From: a bacterium
GTDB lineage: Bacteria; Blakebacterota; Blakebacteria; Blakebacterales; Blakebacteraceae
Direction of reading: 5' to 3'
NCBI GenBank assembly: GCA_025774615.1
Contig: JALGVQ010000076.1
Coordinates: 1-12,732, forward strand
DNA: 12,732 bases
Shown here: positions 5,090 to 12,732 of the stretch, in pieces
Layout: each line of letters starts with the position of its first letter
Position numbering within the stretch: the first letter of the stretch is position 1
Position numbers and translations under genes: made by a program
The notes under the pieces: model-generated
What the model was told of the DNA's origin: nothing
Seen by the model: only the letters and a program-made list of their open reading frames with translations
Databases searched by the model: none

Positions 5090-6646
5090 GTGGCGAACTG
5101 GTTGAACATGGGCGAGATATTGCGGGTGAACGCAGGCAAGTTCAGGGGGAAGATGTGCCTGAAGGATGCCGAGCGGAGCTTCACCTTCGAAGAGATCGAC
5201 TCTCGTGTGAACCGGCTGGCACAGGGTCTCCTAGATCTCGGGCTGGAGAAGGGGGACCGGGTCGCGGTCTTCCTTGAGAACTCGGTCGAGATCTGCGAGG
5301 TCTATTTTGCAGCGGCCAGAACCGGTGTCGTGGTAGCGCCCATCAACTTCAGGCTCGATCCGGAGACGGTGCGGTATATCGCCGATGATTGCGGAGCCCG
5401 GGCCCTGATAGCCCACGATGAATGGGTACCGATGTTCGACGGGATGAAGAACGATCTGCCCGCGATCGAGCACTACCTGGTCGTGGGGGATGAGTGTGAG
5501 GGGTGGATCGGGTACGATTCACTCCTCGACGACTATCCTGATGAGGAACCAGACCGGATCGTCCTGCCCTCCGATCCCTGGATACAGCCCTATACGTCGG
5601 GGACGACCGGCCGGCCGAAAGGGACCGTTCGCTCCCACGAGTCGTATGTGGCATTCTATCTCATCAACGCCGCTGACTTCGGTTTCACCTCGCAGGATAT
5701 CTGCCTGAACGTGATGCCCCTCTGTCACGTGAACTCGACCTTCTTCACCCTCACCATCAGCTACATCGGGGGAGGGGTCGTCATCCATCCCGCCCGCTCG
5801 TTCGATCCGCTCGAGGTGCTGGATGTTATCGAGCGGGAGGGGATCACGTTCATTTCCCTCATCCCCACTCACTACAACATCATCCTGAATGCCCCACGGC
5901 AGCAGGCCTCGAAGTACAACGTCTCCTCGGTCCGGAAGCTCCTCTGCTCCTCGGCCCCGGTGTTCGCCGAATGCAAACAGGCCATCATGGAGTTCTTTCC
6001 GGCCGTGGAACTGTATGAAGCCTACGGCTCCACTGAAGCGGGAATCGTGACGACGCTCATGCCGTGGGACCAGATGAGTCATCTCGGCTCGATCGGCAGG
6101 GAGTCGGCCGGGACCGACATCATCAGGCTGCTGGATGAAGAGGGCAACGAGGTTCCGATCGGTGAAGTCGGCGAAATCCATTCCCGCAGTCCGATGATGT
6201 TCACCGAATACCACGGCATGCCTGAAAAGACCACGGATTCATTCAGGGGAGAGTACTTCTCAGCCGGTGATATGGGACGCAGAGATGAGGAAGGGTATTA
6301 CCACATCGTCGATCGCAAGGACAACCTGATCATCACCGGGGGAGAGCATGTCTACCCCTCCGAGGTGGAGGCAGTAGTCAGTTCCCACCCCGCGGTTTTC
6401 GAATCAGCGGTGATAGGTCTTCCGCACGAGAAATGGGGAGAAGCGGTGACGGCGATTGTGGTTCTCAAAGAGGGCGAAAGCGTCACCGGAGATGAGATCA
6501 TCAGCCACTGCGCTGATCGGCTCGCCACGTTCATGAAGCCGAAGGATGTCCTGTTTGTATCTATGGAAGAGATACCCCGCACCGGAAGCGGCAAGATCAT
6601 CCACCGATTACTGCGGGAACGGCTCGCCCAGGATAGTGCCGGCTGA
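5090..6646 (+). CDS. AMP-forming acyl-CoA ligase (ANL superfamily, class I)
   Basis: Predicted 518-residue cytoplasmic acyl-CoA synthetase that would activate a carboxylic acid with ATP to an acyl-AMP and then to the CoA thioester. The motifs are complete and in order: P-loop YTSGTTGRPKG (168-178), YEAYGSTE (309-316), SAGDMG with ribose-binding Asp394, the hinge region DRKDNLIITGG starting at Asp408, and PRTGSGKI with the catalytic Lys502. Length is normal for the medium/long-chain, CaiC-like and aryl-CoA ligase groups. I cannot predict which acid it uses. The GTG start is set by an AGGAGGG at 5076-5082. It stands alone on the plus strand, divergent from the lipocalin-like gene, and its stop directly abuts the stop of the convergent dehydrogenase gene. 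Being next to a benzoyl-CoA-reductase-like operon, it may supply that operon's acyl-CoA substrate, but this is inferred from position only. Confidence 0.93.
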   Translation: MANWLNMGEILRVNAGKFRGKMCLKDAERSFTFEEIDSRVNRLAQGLLDLGLEKGDRVAVFLENSVEICEVYFAAARTGVVVAPINFRLDPETVRYIADDCGARALIAHDEWVPMFDGMKNDLPAIEHYLVVGDECEGWIGYDSLLDDYPDEEPDRIVLPSDPWIQPYTSGTTGRPKGTVRSHESYVAFYLINAADFGFTSQDICLNVMPLCHVNSTFFTLTISYIGGGVVIHPARSFDPLEVLDVIEREGITFISLIPTHYNIILNAPRQQASKYNVSSVRKLLCSSAPVFAECKQAIMEFFPAVELYEAYGSTEAGIVTTLMPWDQMSHLGSIGRESAGTDIIRLLDEEGNEVPIGEVGEIHSRSPMMFTEYHGMPEKTTDSFRGEYFSAGDMGRRDEEGYYHIVDRKDNLIITGGEHVYPSEVEAVVSSHPAVFESAVIGLPHEKWGEAVTAIVVLKEGESVTGDEIISHCADRLATFMKPKDVLFVSMEEIPRTGSGKIIHRLLRERLAQDSAG

Positions 6647-7711
6647 TCAGTCGCCTGGTACCACTACTGCCCGTTTCGCGAGCTTCCCCTCGTGAGCCAT
6701 ACCGAACACATCGTTGATCTGATCGAGCGGATATCGCTCGATGAACGGTTTCACCGCGATCCGGTCTGAGGCGATCCAGTCGAGCACATCAGGGTAAAGA
6801 GTGGGATCGCTTCCCCAGTTGCCCCTCACCGTTGCATCGAACGCCATCAGGTTGCTGAGCCGTATCTCCAGCTTCTCCATCGTGAAGCCTACGACTGCCA
6901 GATGACCGCCGAAGCCGAGGAGAGCAAAGGCCAGTTCCTGGCCGGGCTTCGTGCCTGAAGTCTCGAATATCTTCCAGAGGGTGCGGGGAGCACCCATGGT
7001 GGAGACGGCTCCCTTTATCGCACCCTTCACCTCCTTGATGTCGAGGTCGGTACTGTTGATGACAATATCAGCTCCGTGCTGAGAGGCGATCTCGAGTTTG
7101 CCGTCATCGATATCGAGAGCGATCACCTTCGCGCCGATCGCCGCGGCTACCTGAACAGTATGGATACCGATTCCGCCGGTTCCCACGATGATGGCCAGGT
7201 CACCTTCTGTGAGCCCGGAGAGACGAACCGACTGGAAGGGTGTACTGATTGCGTCCGCGACGACGGCGAGTTCCCACAGTTCGTGGCCGGACAGTATCTC
7301 TTCACTCACGGGGCAGAGATAGCGGGAGGGGACGACGACGTGTGAGGCGAATCCGCCATGCCTGTCGTTGCCCGGCATGATCTGGGCACGGCAGATGCGC
7401 AGGTTGCCCGATCGGCAGAGGTCGCACTCACCGCAGGGCAGGACTGCCGGAACCAGTACCGGTGAGCCGATGAGGGAAGCATCGACCCCTTCACCCACTT
7501 CCACGACCGTGCCGCTGATCTCGTGGCCGAGGACCAGGGGGAGTTCCGCCCGGGTCTTAACGCCGAAGTGGAGGAAGGAGAGGTCGGTATGGCAGACACC
7601 GCATCCGGCGACTTCGATGAGCGCCTCACCGGGTGGCAGTGGATCGAACGGGATCTCTCCCTCTTCGAATGGTTCACCCTGACCGGTCATCATCCAGCCT
7701 CTGATCGTCAT
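6647..7711 (-). CDS. had: Zinc alcohol dehydrogenase, probable 6-hydroxycyclohex-1-ene-1-carbonyl-CoA dehydrogenase (Had-like)
   Basis: Predicted 354-residue NAD-dependent medium-chain dehydrogenase. In Thauera-type anaerobic benzoate degradation, Had oxidises 6-hydroxycyclohex-1-ene-1-carbonyl-CoA to the 6-oxo compound before ring cleavage. From memory of the Thauera enzyme, shared stretches include VEVAGCGVCHTDL, LGHEISG, IMPGND, GGFASH, VGFTMEKLEIRLSNLMAF (Thauera has D for E) and ERYPLDQI, a much closer match than to general alcohol dehydrogenases. Catalytic zinc ligands are Cys40, His63 and Asp153 or Glu64; structural zinc ligands are Cys93, Cys96, Cys99 and Cys107. The nucleotide fold has GTGGIG (177-182), and Asp200 at the end of the second strand favours NAD over NADP. 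It is the last gene of the operon, overlapping the preceding activase by 4 bp (ATGA), with AAGGAAG about seven bases before the start. No dienoyl-CoA hydratase or ring hydrolase is visible, so the exact substrate is an inference. Confidence 0.8.
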   Translation of the reverse strand: MTIRGWMMTGQGEPFEEGEIPFDPLPPGEALIEVAGCGVCHTDLSFLHFGVKTRAELPLVLGHEISGTVVEVGEGVDASLIGSPVLVPAVLPCGECDLCRSGNLRICRAQIMPGNDRHGGFASHVVVPSRYLCPVSEEILSGHELWELAVVADAISTPFQSVRLSGLTEGDLAIIVGTGGIGIHTVQVAAAIGAKVIALDIDDGKLEIASQHGADIVINSTDLDIKEVKGAIKGAVSTMGAPRTLWKIFETSGTKPGQELAFALLGFGGHLAVVGFTMEKLEIRLSNLMAFDATVRGNWGSDPTLYPDVLDWIASDRIAVKPFIERYPLDQINDVFGMAHEGKLAKRAVVVPGD

Positions 7712-8508
7712 GATGCATCTTCCTTTCGTACACTCTCGATCTCATGCAGACAGGCGAGCGCCGCTCCGAATGCCCCCATCTCCTGTGGATGGGGGGGGAC
7801 GATGATCGTGCCGCCGAACGCTTCCTCCATCATCGCCACGATCACCGGATGATGGGCGATCACTCCGCCTGTCGCAACGACCTGCCCCTCGAAGATATCC
7901 ATCTCCAGTACTCGTTTGACGACAGAGCGGTAGGAAGCGCGGGCGAGGTCAGCCGGGCGTTTCCCCTGACGGATGCTGGTAAGCACCTCGGTGCCGGTGA
8001 AGACGGTGCAGAAACTGCCCAGCTCCAGTTCCTCGGTGAACCCCGAGGCCAGATCGTGGAAGTCCTCTATCGATGTGCCCAGCCGGAGTGCCATCTCCTC
8101 GAGGAAACTGCCGGTTCCGGCCGCGCATTTCCTGTTCATCTTGTGCGAGATCCGCCGGCCCTGTGCGTCGAGCCTGACGACCTTGGCGTCCTGACCGCCG
8201 ATGTCGATGATCGTGACCGCGCCCTTCACGTAATGGTGCACGCCCCGGGCGTGACAATCGAGCTCGGTGCGCGTGCCGTCGGCGAAGGACACATTCGTGC
8301 GTCCGAATCCGGTTGCCCAGATCGCGGCACACTCCTCACGGGTGATACCGGCCCTCTCGATCGCCCCGTCAAACGCTCTCTCTGCCGCGCCGGCGAGGTC
8401 GGCAGCTGTGCGTACGACGAGGCTTCCCACCAGGCGGGCATCCCCGTCGATCACCACCGCCTTGGTGGTCCAGGTCCCGCAGTCGATTCCTCCCAAGAAC
8501 CGGGCCAT
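7708..8508 (-). CDS. ATP-dependent acyl-CoA reductase/dehydratase activase (BcrA/BcrD/HgdC family), canonical copy
   Basis: Predicted 266-residue ASKHA-fold ATPase. In this family a dimer holds one [4Fe-4S] cluster and couples ATP hydrolysis to injection of a low-potential electron into a HgdB/BcrB-type partner. All family signatures are seen: the first phosphate loop GGIDCGTWTTK (6-16), DIGGQDAK (102-109), the cluster-loop CAAGTGSFLE with Cys128, the second ligand Cys167 in GSFCTVF, ATGGV (212-216) for adenosine contact, and GAFGAAL near the end. The length matches HgdC and short Bcr/Bzd-type activase subunits. The start overlaps the upstream reductase-like gene by one base (TGATG), and its stop overlaps the dehydrogenase start by four bases, so translation is coupled. 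It is probably the functional partner of the 415-residue protein just upstream, and may pair with the divergent activase at 9808-10581 as a heterodimer, as BcrA and BcrD do. Confidence 0.93.
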   Translation of the reverse strand: MARFLGGIDCGTWTTKAVVIDGDARLVGSLVVRTAADLAGAAERAFDGAIERAGITREECAAIWATGFGRTNVSFADGTRTELDCHARGVHHYVKGAVTIIDIGGQDAKVVRLDAQGRRISHKMNRKCAAGTGSFLEEMALRLGTSIEDFHDLASGFTEELELGSFCTVFTGTEVLTSIRQGKRPADLARASYRSVVKRVLEMDIFEGQVVATGGVIAHHPVIVAMMEEAFGGTIIVPPHPQEMGAFGAALACLHEIESVRKEDAS

Positions 8509-9755
8509 CAGTCGCCTACTCCTTCACCAGGGCGGCCGCGATCCTCCAGCTGTTCGATGAATCCTTCAAGACTCGTTTTGGTCTGTTCGGAGGAGTAACA
8601 ACGGAGGTCGATCTGATCTCCCTCGATCGTGATAACGGGGATGTCGAGCTGTTCACGCAGTCGCTCGGGCATGCCGTAGCGGCAGTTCGAGTTGCTCGGA
8701 CAGGTCCGGCTGTCGTGGAACACGATGCCGTCTACCGAGAATTCCCGCACCATACGCTCGATGTAACTCTCCTTCGGCGTGTCAGATCGGACGATGAAGA
8801 GTTCAAGGGACGCTCGCGCCATCGACCGGAACGGATCGGCCGCGTCGAGCGCGTCGAAGATCCAGCTGTTGCAGTACGTCGAGGCCACGACCGTGGTCGA
8901 GAGCGCCGCGAAGAGCTCTGACAGCTCCCGAAGTTTTCCCCAGATCGGCATCCCCTCCCAGTAGAGGCGAAAACGTTCTCCTTCGACAGCCGCCACTCCG
9001 TCATCGACACGCTTCTGCAGTTCACTCAGGAAGAGGCGGTAGTACTCATTGGCCGCGGGTATTCCCCGCATCGTGACGACCGGTCCCATATGGATGGTGC
9101 TGTCGAAGAAGGTAACGGGAGAGGGTTTGTGGGCCGCCATCTCCATACACGATTTCCACAGGTCTACGCACTCCTTTGACAGGGCAATGATCTCACTGAA
9201 GTTGTCAGAAGTCAGTCGGGTTCCCGCGATCTCCTCGAGCGGAGGCACGAGGTCCTCCATCTGGCTCGCGATCGCGTCGACCTGGATATCGGTTACGTTC
9301 TCGATCATGTGCATTGATTCTATGCCGATGACCGGGACGTCCCAGGTCCGGCCGTAGAACTCATACCAGTCGCGAACGTCGCGGCACTGGTTGGTGTTGA
9401 AGACCAGGACATCGGGTTTCGGCACTTCCTCAAGGCCGAAGGCGGAGAAGGGGGTCTCGCCGGCGAGGAAGGCACCGATGTCAGCGGTGAGGTAGGAGCA
9501 GATATCCTGCGAGTAACCGCGGGCGTGCGCCCGGGTCATGTAGTCATTGGCGGTCCTGGCCGCGCCCAACATGGAGCTGTGATTCTCCGGGAAGTGCACC
9601 TTGTAACCGAGCGCCCTCAGGATCTCCACCGGCCCGGTGCTGGTGCACCAGGCTACCGGCGCTGACTTCGCGGCGGCGGCACTCCCGAGTTCGAGATAGT
9701 ACCCCACCATCGTTTCTTTCAGGCTGGCCGTGCTCTCCAGAACCCTTCGCTTCAT
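8508..9755 (-). CDS. HgdB/BcrB/BcrC-type reductase/dehydratase subunit, cysteine-rich copy
   Basis: Predicted 415-residue member of the 2-hydroxyacyl-CoA dehydratase D-component (PF06050-type) superfamily, which holds iron-sulfur clusters and binds acyl-CoA substrates. The N-terminal lobe has CTSTGPVE with Cys37 (family CTxxxPxE signature), Cys86 in DICSYL and Cys124 in NTNQC. The C-terminal lobe has Cys295 in ASTYC and the pair Cys352/Cys358 in RTCPSNSNC, followed by IEGDQID and an amphipathic C-terminal helix typical of the family. Other cysteines are 196, 203 and 386. The N-terminal triad suits one [4Fe-4S] cluster; the C-terminal set could bind more (see findings). A GGAG lies six bases before the ATG. 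It is preceded by a 52-bp gap and followed by its activase with a one-base stop/start overlap. It is clearly paralogous to the fused domain at 10603-11840. Whether it acts on benzoyl-CoA, a 2-hydroxyacyl-CoA or something else is unknown. Confidence 0.9.
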   Translation of the reverse strand: MKRRVLESTASLKETMVGYYLELGSAAAAKSAPVAWCTSTGPVEILRALGYKVHFPENHSSMLGAARTANDYMTRAHARGYSQDICSYLTADIGAFLAGETPFSAFGLEEVPKPDVLVFNTNQCRDVRDWYEFYGRTWDVPVIGIESMHMIENVTDIQVDAIASQMEDLVPPLEEIAGTRLTSDNFSEIIALSKECVDLWKSCMEMAAHKPSPVTFFDSTIHMGPVVTMRGIPAANEYYRLFLSELQKRVDDGVAAVEGERFRLYWEGMPIWGKLRELSELFAALSTTVVASTYCNSWIFDALDAADPFRSMARASLELFIVRSDTPKESYIERMVREFSVDGIVFHDSRTCPSNSNCRYGMPERLREQLDIPVITIEGDQIDLRCYSSEQTKTSLEGFIEQLEDRGRPGEGVGD

Positions 9756-9807: not shown

Positions 9808-10581
9808 TCAAAGAACCCTCAATGCGGCACCGAGGGCGCCGGTCATGATCGGTTCCGGGACCGCTTCGACATGGAATCCGGTGAGCTCGGAGAGTGACTT
9901 GAGTACGCCGGGGAAATACTCGGCCACACCTCCCGAGACCACGACCGGCTCACGCAGCCCTCCGATCTCGTAGATTCTCTCGGCAACCGACTGCATGGTG
10001 CCGAGCGCGATATCCTCACGGTTGGTGCCATCCCGCAGCTGCTCCAGGATCTCCACCTGGGAAAAGACCGAACAGTAGCTGCCGATCGGCGCTGCCCTCT
10101 CTGCCTCCGCCGCAAGTTCCTGCAGTTGCGTCGGGTGCACATCGAGATGCCGTGCCGTGAACATGAGGAACGTACCTATACCGATCGCGCACCTCCGGAC
10201 CAGCCGCGTGTCCAGGACATGTCCGCTATGATCGATCCGGACGACTTTCGGATCACTCCCTCCGATGTCGATCACCGACATTGCCCGGGGGTGATGATGG
10301 AAGGCGCCAAGTGCGTGACAGGTGGTCTCACCGGTGACAGAAACGGCATCGGGTACGCATTCAGCGGCGAACCCGGTGGCTGCGATGGCTTCGATATCCG
10401 AACGGGTGATCTTTGCCTCATCGAGGGCCTGATCCATCGCCTCTTCGACCCGGTGCTGGAAGTAGCCTCTGGTCGGCACGATCGCCCGGCCCCGGATCCC
10501 CACATCCTTTTCCATGACCACAGCCTTGACGCACTCAGTGCCGACATCCACGGCTGCGACTACCCTGTTGGATTCAGTCAT
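9808..10581 (-). CDS. Acyl-CoA reductase activase-like ATPase, divergent copy
   Basis: Predicted 257-residue BcrA/BcrD/HgdC-family protein. The overall ASKHA layout is kept: AVDVGTECVKAVV (10-22), DIGGSDPK (105-112), VSGGV (215-219) and TGALGAAL near the C-terminus. Both cluster cysteines remain, Cys131 in RRCAIGIG and Cys170 in GSYCSVF. Several signatures differ from its paralogue at 7708-8508: the phosphate loop TTK is CVK, the family DIGGQD is DIGGSD, and the cluster loop AAGTG is AIGIG. It can therefore probably still share a [4Fe-4S] cluster at a dimer interface, but its ATP turnover may be weakened or specialised. Start: ATG at 10581 with AGGA six bases before it, 21 bp after the fusion gene. 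A heterodimer with the canonical activase, like BcrA-BcrD, is the natural expectation; a regulatory or structural role is the alternative. Confidence 0.88.
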   Translation of the reverse strand: MTESNRVVAAVDVGTECVKAVVMEKDVGIRGRAIVPTRGYFQHRVEEAMDQALDEAKITRSDIEAIAATGFAAECVPDAVSVTGETTCHALGAFHHHPRAMSVIDIGGSDPKVVRIDHSGHVLDTRLVRRCAIGIGTFLMFTARHLDVHPTQLQELAAEAERAAPIGSYCSVFSQVEILEQLRDGTNREDIALGTMQSVAERIYEIGGLREPVVVSGGVAEYFPGVLKSLSELTGFHVEAVPEPIMTGALGAALRVL

Positions 10582-10602: not shown

Positions 10603-12732
10603 TCAGAGAACCTCCTGCGGCATTGTGAGGTCGGTCATCGATCCTTCGTGCTGTTCGAGGAAATCGAGGACCTGCTGCTGGATATGCCGGATCGAGAAGA
10701 GACGGAGATCGTGGGCGTCGGCTTCGATCACAATGGATGGCAGGCCGGTCGATCGGCGGAGTTTGACCTCGAGTCCGTACCGGACATTACTGTGCTCCGG
10801 TGATGTTCTCCCCTCGTGGTACACCACAGCGTCGACGGCGTTGGCTTCGAACTGGGAACGGAGCCAGCTTGCCTTGTAAGCATCCGAACGGTTGGGAAAG
10901 ATGCCGGTGTAGGCGCGGGCCATGCTCTCGATCGGATTCTTCGGATCGAGTCCCTCAAGCCCCCAGATCGTGCAGTAGGTAGAGGAGATCAGTGCGATCT
11001 GGTGGTCGAAGAAGAGACTGGCCAGCGGCATGAGAGCTCCCCAGATCGGCGGGCCTTCCCAGTAGAAGCGGAACCGTTCCCCCGGCACAGCGGCCAGTGT
11101 GTTCGACACCCGATCTTCGATCTCCGCTTTCAGGATCTCGTAATACTCGACTGCCTGAGGAGTTCCCCGCATCAGGACCATCGGCGCCATATGCACGAGA
11201 AGGTCGAAGGTGGTCAACGGGGAGGGGACGTTCCGGGCCAGCTGGACGATCTCCGACCAGAGACCGGCCGCTCTCCCGGCATTGTCGACCGTCTCGGCCA
11301 ACCGGTCGATGTCAAGCGCCCGGCCGGTCATCTCCTCCAGTCGGGTTATCATCCGCTCCATCTGTCCGGCTGCCGCGTCGACCTCGATCTTGCCCACTTC
11401 TCCGAGAGCAGTGGGGGGGTGCAGGCTGAGCGCAGGTACCCCGAAGTGACCGCTGTAGTAATCGAACCACCTGATGAGGCCGTGTCCGAAGTTGGTGCTG
11501 TAGATGACAACATCGGCCCGTGGTGGTCCTGATATGTCGTAAACAGATACCAGCGGACTGTCACCGGCGAGCATGGCGCCGATGTCGCAGGTCATGGCTG
11601 AACTGGCGAACTGCGAGAAACCTTCAGTGATCGCACGGGGAATGTACCGACTGGCCTGGCGGCTCGCTCCGATCAGGGCGGCGTGGTTCTCGGGGAAATA
11701 GGGAGTGAACCCCATGGCACGCACGATCTCGACCGGTCCCATGCCGGATGCCCAGGCGACGAGTCGATCGGGATCATCACTCGCACTCTGGATATCCAGG
11801 TAGTAGTCGCGGACAAGCTCCTTCAGGGCCGGCGCAGTCTCGAGCGGAACCCGTCCCGATGGCATGGCGCGTCCATCCTCAAGACGGACAGGCTGGGCAG
11901 CAGGTCTTGGTACGGCTTCAGTAGCGCTCTTCAGGGTAACGGTGATCTCCTGCTGTCGCTGGAGGTTCTTTCTCTCTTCAGAATGGATCAGGCGGCACAG
12001 GGCCTGGTTGATCGGCGCCGGCAGACCGAAGCGTTCCGCTTCACGAACGATAGGGCCGTTTATGGCATCGACCTCGGTCAGTGTGCCGCGGGACAGGTCC
12101 TGCCACATCGACGGGCGGTTCTTGCCGAGCGCCCTCTGCGAGTTGGTGACAGGCCGGTAGGGGTCCTCCTCGTCGATGATCGGAATCCCGCGCGCCTTCA
12201 TCACTTCGATGATCTCCATGCAGAGGTCCCGCATGAAGTCCTGCAGGTCGTCATCCAGCAGGAGTTCCCGGCAGGTGAGGCCGGTCACGGCCGAGACCGG
12301 ATTCACCACGGCGTTGTGGAGGAGTTTCTGCCAGATCGTTTCATCGATGTTCTCAACGATATCAGTTTCCAGGCCGGCCTTGCCGAAAACCTCGCCGATC
12401 TCCTTCAGCCTTGGTGTGATGGTGCCATCATAGGGAGCGATCTGGATCGGCTTGATCCCCGGACGGAAACGGATACGGTTGGGACCGGTATGCTGGATGC
12501 TGTGATAGGTGATACCGCAGATGACCCGTTCTCCGCCGATGATTCCGGCCATCGTATCGGTGTTCCCGATGCCGTTCTGCATCGAAAGGACGTAGGCATC
12601 GGATTTGAGAAAGGTCTGCGCGGTCAGGGTCGCTTCTTCCGTCTGGTAGCTCTTGACCGCGACGAAGACGAGGTCAGCCTCATCAACCTCTTCGGCGGAG
12701 GTCACCACCCGGATCGGGACGCACCGTTCACC
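10603..12732 (-). CDS. Ketopantoate-reductase-family domain fused to a HgdB/BcrB/BcrC-type domain lacking cluster cysteines; 5' end outside window
   Basis: The frame is open to the right edge, so the NADPH-binding glycine loop of the first domain is not seen. Numbered from the GTG at 12708, residues 1-255 are a ketopantoate reductase (PanE/ApbA) domain with the key residues present: Lys19 (AVKS), Asn45 (MQNG), Lys128, Asn132 and Asn136 (WQKLLHNAVVN), Ser200 and Glu212, equivalent to E. coli PanE Lys72, Asn98, Lys176, Asn180, Asn184, Ser244 and Glu256. A Pro/Ala-rich linker (about 256-290) follows. Residues 291-701 are a reductase/dehydratase-type domain, clearly paralogous to the 8508-9755 protein (shared FPENH, DIGAMLAG, FYWEG and STYC). 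It has Ala320, Ser369, Gly408, Ser636 and Val642 where the paralogue has cysteines; only Cys579 is kept. The frame runs unbroken through the linker. PanE relatives include D-2-hydroxyacid dehydrogenases, so the reductase substrate is open. First visible gene of the operon. Confidence 0.9.
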   Translation of the reverse strand, partial: GERCVPIRVVTSAEEVDEADLVFVAVKSYQTEEATLTAQTFLKSDAYVLSMQNGIGNTDTMAGIIGGERVICGITYHSIQHTGPNRIRFRPGIKPIQIAPYDGTITPRLKEIGEVFGKAGLETDIVENIDETIWQKLLHNAVVNPVSAVTGLTCRELLLDDDLQDFMRDLCMEIIEVMKARGIPIIDEEDPYRPVTNSQRALGKNRPSMWQDLSRGTLTEVDAINGPIVREAERFGLPAPINQALCRLIHSEERKNLQRQQEITVTLKSATEAVPRPAAQPVRLEDGRAMPSGRVPLETAPALKELVRDYYLDIQSASDDPDRLVAWASGMGPVEIVRAMGFTPYFPENHAALIGASRQASRYIPRAITEGFSQFASSAMTCDIGAMLAGDSPLVSVYDISGPPRADVVIYSTNFGHGLIRWFDYYSGHFGVPALSLHPPTALGEVGKIEVDAAAGQMERMITRLEEMTGRALDIDRLAETVDNAGRAAGLWSEIVQLARNVPSPLTTFDLLVHMAPMVLMRGTPQAVEYYEILKAEIEDRVSNTLAAVPGERFRFYWEGPPIWGALMPLASLFFDHQIALISSTYCTIWGLEGLDPKNPIESMARAYTGIFPNRSDAYKASWLRSQFEANAVDAVVYHEGRTSPEHSNVRYGLEVKLRRSTGLPSIVIEADAHDLRLFSIRHIQQQVLDFLEQHEGSMTDLTMPQEVL
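11863..11879 (-). promoter_or_regulatory. Possible internal translation start within the fusion linker
   Basis: On the minus strand an in-frame ATG at 11863-11865 (Met282 of the fusion, numbered from the GTG at 12708) is preceded by GAGGA with a ten-base spacing. It lies in the Pro/Ala-rich linker just before the HgdB-like domain. If used, it would produce the reductase-like subunit alone, about 420 residues and close to the length of its unfused paralogue. The site is weak and may be chance. Confidence 0.25.

Follow-up and report, generated by a model that had tools for sequence, protein, structure and literature searches.

A ketopantoate reductase family domain fused to an HgdB paralogue without cluster cysteines, in an operon apparently tied to benzoyl-CoA catabolism

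The stretch of DNA that we analysed (the window; 12,732 nucleotides) is the whole of contig C81 in a 3.3 Mb draft genome that is 82% complete. Its features are listed in Table 1. On the minus strand, 12732..10603 is a single open frame of 709 codons without a stop or an N. The frame exits the contig end, and its first ~60-80 residues are missing, including the start codon and the GxGxxG motif. ApbA (PF02558) matches residues 2-102 (profile positions 49-149 of 150; 71.5 bits versus a cut-off of 22.2), ApbA_C (PF08546) matches residues 128-251 (profile positions 1-123 of 125; 118.4 bits versus a cut-off of 22.7), and HGD-D (PF06050) matches residues 332-693 (profile positions 4-340 of 342; 156 bits, E = 2e-45). 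E values for these three matches run from 8e-20 to 2e-45. TIGR00745 also matches, with 192.8 bits versus a cut-off of 141.35. The initial annotation had placed a PanE domain, a linker, and an HgdB-like domain on one frame, and the Pfam matches agree. The linker is 45-68 amino acids long in relatives, is variable in length and sequence, and is poorly conserved; it is predicted to be disordered (pLDDT below 50 at residues 328-366 in a predicted model of the L012 protein).

Table 1. Features of the window
Feature	Coordinates	Strand	Evidence
PanE/ApbA domain (ketopantoate reductase family), N-terminal part lost at contig end	11968..12732	-	PF02558/PF08546, invariant residues, fold of full-length relative
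Inter-domain linker	about 11830..11967	-	lengths in relatives; low pLDDT in L012 model
HgdB*: full-length HGD-D domain, HadB/BzdO type, without cluster cysteines; stop codon included	10603..11829	-	PF06050, Cys count, fold
ActA, BcrA/BcrD/HgdC-type ATPase (activase)	9808..10581	-	TIGR00241 over cut-off; both cluster Cys 37/37
HgdB2, catalytic-type alpha subunit with three cluster cysteines	8508..9755	-	profile match, Cys count 35/35
ActB, second activase, 1-base overlap with HgdB2	7708..8508	-	TIGR00241 over cut-off; both cluster Cys 34/34
HAD dehydrogenase, 6-hydroxycyclohex-1-ene-1-carbonyl-CoA dehydrogenase family	6647..7711	-	TIGR03201 454.8 bits vs cut-off 338.65
AMP-forming acyl-CoA ligase, convergent with HAD dehydrogenase	5090..6646	+	PF00501/PF13193
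ADP-forming acyl-CoA ligase, cut at contig start	2-1750

The fusion, ActA, HgdB2, ActB, and HAD dehydrogenase genes are on the same strand with spacings of 21, 52, -1, and -4 bases, so we consider them an operon. ActA adjoins the fusion wherever the contig extends that far. Both activases keep the main ATPase motifs and the two cysteines that are expected to form a bridging cluster. The HAD dehydrogenase is single copy (it is the sole match below E = 1e-70 in its genome).

The usual gene order, in Gemmatimonadota and several other groups, is PanE-HgdB*, ActA, HgdB2, ActB, ligase, HAD dehydrogenase, and many relatives have a ligase gene close to the fusion genes. A Krumholzibacteriota-like group has HgdB2-ActB together with an ADP-forming ligase in an operon of their own, which is either close by or on a different contig. 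(Relatives of the window's ADP-forming ligase adjoin HgdB2-ActB in Krumholzibacteriota-like and Deltaproteobacteria genomes.) Upstream of the fusion there are usually genes for a 4-hydroxybenzoyl-CoA-reductase-like Mo enzyme, a TetR regulator, an SDR, a thiolase, and an enoyl-CoA hydratase. In one group, the thiolase is BbsB-like and is accompanied by a BbsA-like OB protein. At L016:5458-7081 and in the Krumholzibacteriota-like group, the thiolase and an OB/zinc-ribbon protein resemble the benzoylsuccinyl-CoA thiolase BbsB/BbsA, below equivalog cut-offs. The Mo hydroxylase at L016:332-4050, L012:82-3803, and other loci is nearest to the 4-hydroxybenzoyl-CoA reductase alpha subunit (885 bits versus a cut-off of 994.55); its gamma subunit is fused to alpha and there is a short, XdhB-like FAD subunit. 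This Mo hydroxylase may work in the oxidative direction. No aminotransferase was seen. One genome only (G060) has an indolepyruvate ferredoxin oxidoreductase alpha-like gene near the operon (L116:14665-16293; 523 bits versus a cut-off of 651), which is a weak hint at aryl-2-oxoacids.

PanE, linker, and HgdB run uninterrupted in 35 genomes from several phyla (our own count of genomes with the fusion on one frame, from a genome contig scan and surveys), with lengths of about 770-830 amino acids. Relatives at 55-68% identity come from MAGs labelled Eisenbacteria, Krumholzibacteriota, and Gemmatimonadetes, and from further bacteria. In our surveys, the PanE domain occurs in 16 of 395 genomes from the phylum of G009, always fused; in 10 of 195 from the phylum of G012, with 7 of them fused and 3 unfused; and in 11 of 80 from the phylum of G008, fused except where a contig end cuts the gene. 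The initial annotation had proposed that absence of the fusion from all close relatives, along with reads that show an indel near the linker, would mark an artefact; we looked in relatives, and the same architecture is there, so the fusion is real. (G514, from the Gemmatimonadota phylum, has two copies of the fusion gene, on G514:C60 and G514:C144; loci L126 and L128.) A separate internal start for HgdB* was considered and rejected: many sequences have a methionine ~12 residues before the domain, and it is missing in several Gemmatimonadota. No Shine-Dalgarno-like motif is conserved ahead of HgdB*.

The unfused PanE proteins come from three Deltaproteobacteria. They are 62-65% identical to the fused domains and are surrounded by similar genes; in two of the three genomes, HgdB2-ActB lies at a distance of ~10 kb. 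HgdB* was not found in these three genomes. The three unfused sequences nest among the fused ones in the tree, and the outgroup is very distant, so both fission and fusion are compatible with the tree.

As the initial annotation supposed, the fusion seems to be undescribed, as far as the searched literature shows: we found no paper that names the PanE and HgdB families together and no description of such a fusion. bcrABCD has been reported in Krumholzibacteriota (PMC10936416), and a word search of that text found neither "fusion" nor "dehydratase".

We examined the cluster ligands of the two HGD-D proteins. Three residues of BzdO, Cys95, Cys128, and Cys380, ligate the active-site [4Fe-4S] cluster, and the coordination in HadB is the same (PMC11971306). 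The corresponding residues of HgdB* in the window are S377, G416, and S644. Across 36 HgdB* sequences, the first cysteine is present in 0/36, the second in 0/36 (Gly in 35/36 and Ser in 1/36), and the third in 1/36. In contrast, HgdB2 from the same loci and close relatives has all three cysteines in 35/35 (C86, C124, and C352 in the window). The equivalent of Glu65 is kept in 34/36 HgdB*. The predicted HgdB* structure (L012) matches the HadB alpha subunit (3o3m_A) with Z = 42.6 over 396 residues, versus Z = 31.2 for the HadC beta subunit. In a phylogenetic tree, HgdB* forms one clade (100/100) that lies with HgdB2 and away from the BcrC/BzdN type, although the order of branching close to the long canonical branches is uncertain. 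The tree and the closer fold match to HadB than to HadC rule out that HgdB* is a BcrC/HadC-type beta subunit. Nor is it a decaying pseudo-domain, because it diverges at just 1.18 times the rate of HgdB2 and has 90 near-invariant positions. By the alignments and the predicted model, HgdB* is a conserved, apparently cluster-free paralogue of HgdB2, of the alpha, HadB-like type. Thus, of the initial assignment to an HgdB/BcrB/BcrC-like domain, the full length holds and the type narrows to alpha (HadB/BcrB/BzdO); the BcrC/HadC type falls away, as does the idea that the fused half acts at an Fe-S cluster, since the full ligand set occurs in 0/36. With the ligands of HgdB* gone, catalysis must sit in the separate HgdB2.

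HgdB2 scores best against the HadB profile (213 bits, versus 132 for BcrB and 81 for BzdO). It has Val at the position of BzdO His131 in 35/35; other true BCR subunits likewise lack His131. HgdB2 from the window and 34 relatives has five invariant cysteines, which are the three ligands and two more. One of the extra cysteines aligns with a BzdN cysteine and the other lies beside a BzdN cysteine column. They could bind an additional ligand or a larger cluster.

The PanE half of the window protein has N53, K136, N140, N144, S208, and E220. Among 41 fused and unfused sequences, K136, N140, N144, and E220 are kept in 41/41, the position of N53 is invariant apart from one gap, and the position of S208 is Ser or Thr in 41/41. 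The catalytic Lys/Asn/Glu set that was noted at first is therefore confirmed and invariant across homologues. The nucleotide motif lies beyond the contig end, outside the window; GAGALGG is present in 39/39 relatives that reach it. A model of the PanE domain from L012 matches ketopantoate reductase and D-mandelate dehydrogenase across the whole domain (Z 33-35; Z 32-35 for the D-mandelate dehydrogenase matches). So this half seems to be an intact PanE-type dehydrogenase and is apparently active. Some PanE-family members are 2-hydroxyacid dehydrogenases, and the D-mandelate dehydrogenases are NADH-linked. A Glu at the end of beta-strand 2 usually accompanies NAD(H), and 37/39 sequences carry it, which makes NADPH, the cofactor first suggested, doubtful. 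From this one Glu and general knowledge of the family, we infer that the PanE half uses NADH rather than NADPH.

Gene content ties the fusion to benzoyl-CoA catabolism. The HAD dehydrogenase is above cut-off in 26/26 PanE-positive genomes from two surveyed phyla (23 fused, 3 unfused), against backgrounds of 33/395 and 33/195 genomes (hypergeometric 9e-20 and 5e-9; this treats genomes as independent, and the HAD dehydrogenase is often in the fusion operon itself). In six carriers of the second phylum, the HAD dehydrogenase gene is not part of that operon. Where it is located elsewhere (G057, G060, G065, and G066), the fusion genes are still beside FadJ-like and thiolase-like genes. Canonical BCR genes are contiguous with the fusion genes in L063, L134, and L138. 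Canonical OAH is over its cut-off in 19/28 carriers or near relatives. No 6-oxocyclohex-1-ene-1-carbonyl-CoA hydrolase was over cut-off in G009, G222, G253, G308, G336, G374, G006, or the window's own genome. Instead of the hydrolase, there is a BadI/MenB-like ring-opening candidate below cut-off (the own copy is G000:C251:4107-4625), and in genomes of the Gemmatimonadota phylum this candidate lies inside the fusion operon. The own genome also has a genuine Bzd-type BCR set, separate from the window's operon (G000:C43:1755-6071; L067). Its BzdN (506 bits) and BzdO (691 bits) are both over the NCBIfam cut-offs, and two activases follow. Judging by gene content, the fusion may mark an undescribed entry route into anaerobic aromatic degradation. 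It is a sharp genomic marker, with a benzoyl-CoA-pathway dehydrogenase in all 26 carriers of the two surveyed phyla. The carrier phyla have few cultured members, and their aromatic catabolism is known mainly from genomes.

With somewhat less than even confidence, we favor the following explanation: the protein ties an NADH-dependent 2-oxoacid reductase to a subunit that is not catalytic itself but partners the catalytic one in a 2-hydroxyacyl-CoA-dehydratase-like enzyme. This enzyme would be ATP-driven, have a single cluster, and feed benzoyl-CoA-type catabolism. HgdB* would pair with HgdB2, and the dimer would then have one [4Fe-4S] cluster, in HgdB2, rather than two. The ActA-ActB heterodimer should hold one bridging cluster. 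HgdB2 is the only catalytic-type subunit of the set that bears ligands, so if HgdB* is its partner, the ATP-energised electron has to enter HgdB2 straight from the cluster of ActA-ActB. HgdB2 would remove water from an (R)-2-hydroxyacyl-CoA by ketyl chemistry. PanE chemistry yields the (R)-2-hydroxyacid, as such a dehydratase needs: the tethered PanE would convert a 2-oxoacid and NADH to the 2-hydroxyacid, and the nearby ligase would attach CoA. The hydratase, the dehydrogenase, and the thiolase would then process the enoyl-CoA, and a benzoyl-CoA-type product would result. A route from aryl-pyruvate via aryl-lactate to cinnamoyl-CoA would account for the other genes of the operon, although the substrate is a guess; if it ended in benzoyl- or 4-hydroxybenzoyl-CoA, it would, speculatively, explain the whole gene set. 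Handing a 2-hydroxyacid over to the CoA complex, as the initial annotation proposed, remains the best functional idea, but not with the fused HgdB half itself as the catalyst.

The invariant PanE active site, the match to D-mandelate dehydrogenase, the contrast in cysteines between HgdB* and HgdB2, and the enoyl-CoA hydratase, SDR, thiolase, and ligase of the operon all support this dehydratase-like reading. So do two features of HgdB2, its similarity to HadB and the Val where BzdO has His131. In known dehydratases, each subunit has a cluster, and the electron goes from the homodimeric activator to cluster A and on to cluster B, where the substrate is bound (PMC8473912). BzdNO stores electrons in a double-cubane cluster on its second subunit (PMC11971306). 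Ketyl dehydration proceeds with one electron and can do without such a second store, again in favor of dehydratase chemistry. Several points weaken the reading. Two different activases are a trait of BCRs, and the tight linkage to the HAD dehydrogenase and to canonical BCR genes suits ring reduction too. Also, the tether is not indispensable, as the three Deltaproteobacteria have an unfused PanE and no HgdB* that we could find. The lack of a visible aminotransferase counts against the reading too.

The main rival is a second BCR-like enzyme that acts on an aroyl-CoA with a substituent (a hydroxyl, for instance) or on a ring intermediate from a later step. HgdB2/HgdB* and ActA-ActB would reduce the ring, and the tethered PanE would reduce a ring ketone that arises by tautomerisation. 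This fits the neighbourhood (the contiguous BCR genes, the 4-hydroxybenzoyl-CoA-reductase-like Mo enzyme in many operons, and the HAD dehydrogenase in all 26 PanE carriers) as well as a dehydratase does, and the two non-identical activases, as in BcrA/BcrD, fit it better. But ring ketones are not known to be PanE substrates, HgdB2 is nearer to HadB than to BzdO, the operon itself lacks a BcrC/BzdN-type gene, and the own genome already has a canonical class I BCR. Furthermore, Bzd-type class I BCRs store electrons in the double-cubane subunit (PMC11971306), and HgdB* has no ligands. We consider ring reduction doubtful, but a serious contender.

It is unlikely that the fusion serves only for co-expression, with PanE working alone in the catabolic pathway, HgdB* acting as a chaperone or dimer filler for HgdB2, and a link that means nothing mechanistically. 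The Deltaproteobacteria with their separate PanE and the poor conservation of the linker speak for this; yet the fusion has been retained in 35 genomes across phyla despite the drift of the linker, and HgdB* is strongly conserved. If PanE instead gated the radical enzyme as a sensor of redox state or of a ligand, with no turnover by itself, a tether to the partner of an ATP-spending enzyme would make sense. But the catalytic residues, Lys and Glu included, are invariant in all 41 sequences, and a catabolic operon houses the unfused PanE, so the initial suggestion that PanE was co-opted purely as a sensing module is very unlikely. Although the gene in the window is interrupted by the contig end, the chance that an assembly error or frameshift merged two genes is negligible, because 35 genomes show the same fusion.

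Taken further, the dehydratase-like reading would describe a third architecture in the BCR/HAD family: a single-cluster dimer, a ligand-free partner with a tethered NADH-dependent 2-hydroxyacid dehydrogenase, and a heterodimeric activase. Together they would form a channelled module from aryl-2-oxoacid to cinnamoyl-type CoA, by which Gemmatimonadota, Krumholzibacteriota, Eisenbacteria, and relatives would enter the benzoyl-CoA pathway along an undescribed route. We see this as possible, if less than likely. The radical enzymes concerned work at the edge of biological reduction, where they break aromatic rings or take off unactivated hydroxyls. In the known heterodimeric members, both halves of the catalytic dimer contain Fe-S clusters, and a one-cluster dimer would reveal what the second cluster is for. 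In the fusion, a mild reaction that uses NADH would be coupled to a radical reaction that costs ATP.

How does this system compare with those already known? With the PanE/ApbA family (ketopantoate reductase and D-mandelate/D-2-hydroxyacid dehydrogenase; PDB 5ayv, 3wfj, 5x20), it shares the complete fold, the invariant Lys/Asn/Glu, and, in relatives, GAGALGG; it differs in the fusion to HgdB*, the setting in an anaerobic aromatic operon, and the acidic residue that suggests NAD(H). With the (R)-2-hydroxyisocaproyl-CoA dehydratase of Clostridioides difficile (HadBC and HadI; PDB 3o3m), it shares the HadB alpha type in both HgdB2 and HgdB*, the three cluster cysteines in HgdB2, and an ATPase activase encoded alongside. 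However, the operon has no HadC-type beta subunit, and the presumed partner is an alpha paralogue that lacks a cluster and is fused to a dehydrogenase. HgdB* has the HGD-D domain and HadB/BzdO fold of a catalytic alpha subunit, but not the three ligand cysteines. The HadI-type activase is a homodimer, whereas two different activases are encoded here. Thus the cluster in each subunit and the homodimeric activator that characterize (R)-2-hydroxyacyl-CoA dehydratases (PMC8473912) are both lacking, with HgdB* ligand-free and the activases unlike. With class I BCRs (BcrABCD, BzdNOPQ, MbdONPQ), the system shares two HGD-D subunits, a benzoyl-CoA neighbourhood, and two different ATPases with cluster cysteines (ActA 37/37, ActB 34/34). 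But the second subunit lacks cluster ligands and is fused to PanE, HgdB2 has Val for BzdO His131, and the operon itself has no double-cubane (BzdN/BcrC-type) subunit, although canonical BCR genes are nearby in several genomes. Finally, the system belongs to the same superfamily as DCCP and the cluster-loss series DCCP - BCR - HAD - TudS, in which Fe-S ligands were lost stepwise (PMC11971306). Here, one subunit has lost all of its ligands, a step that is absent from that scheme.
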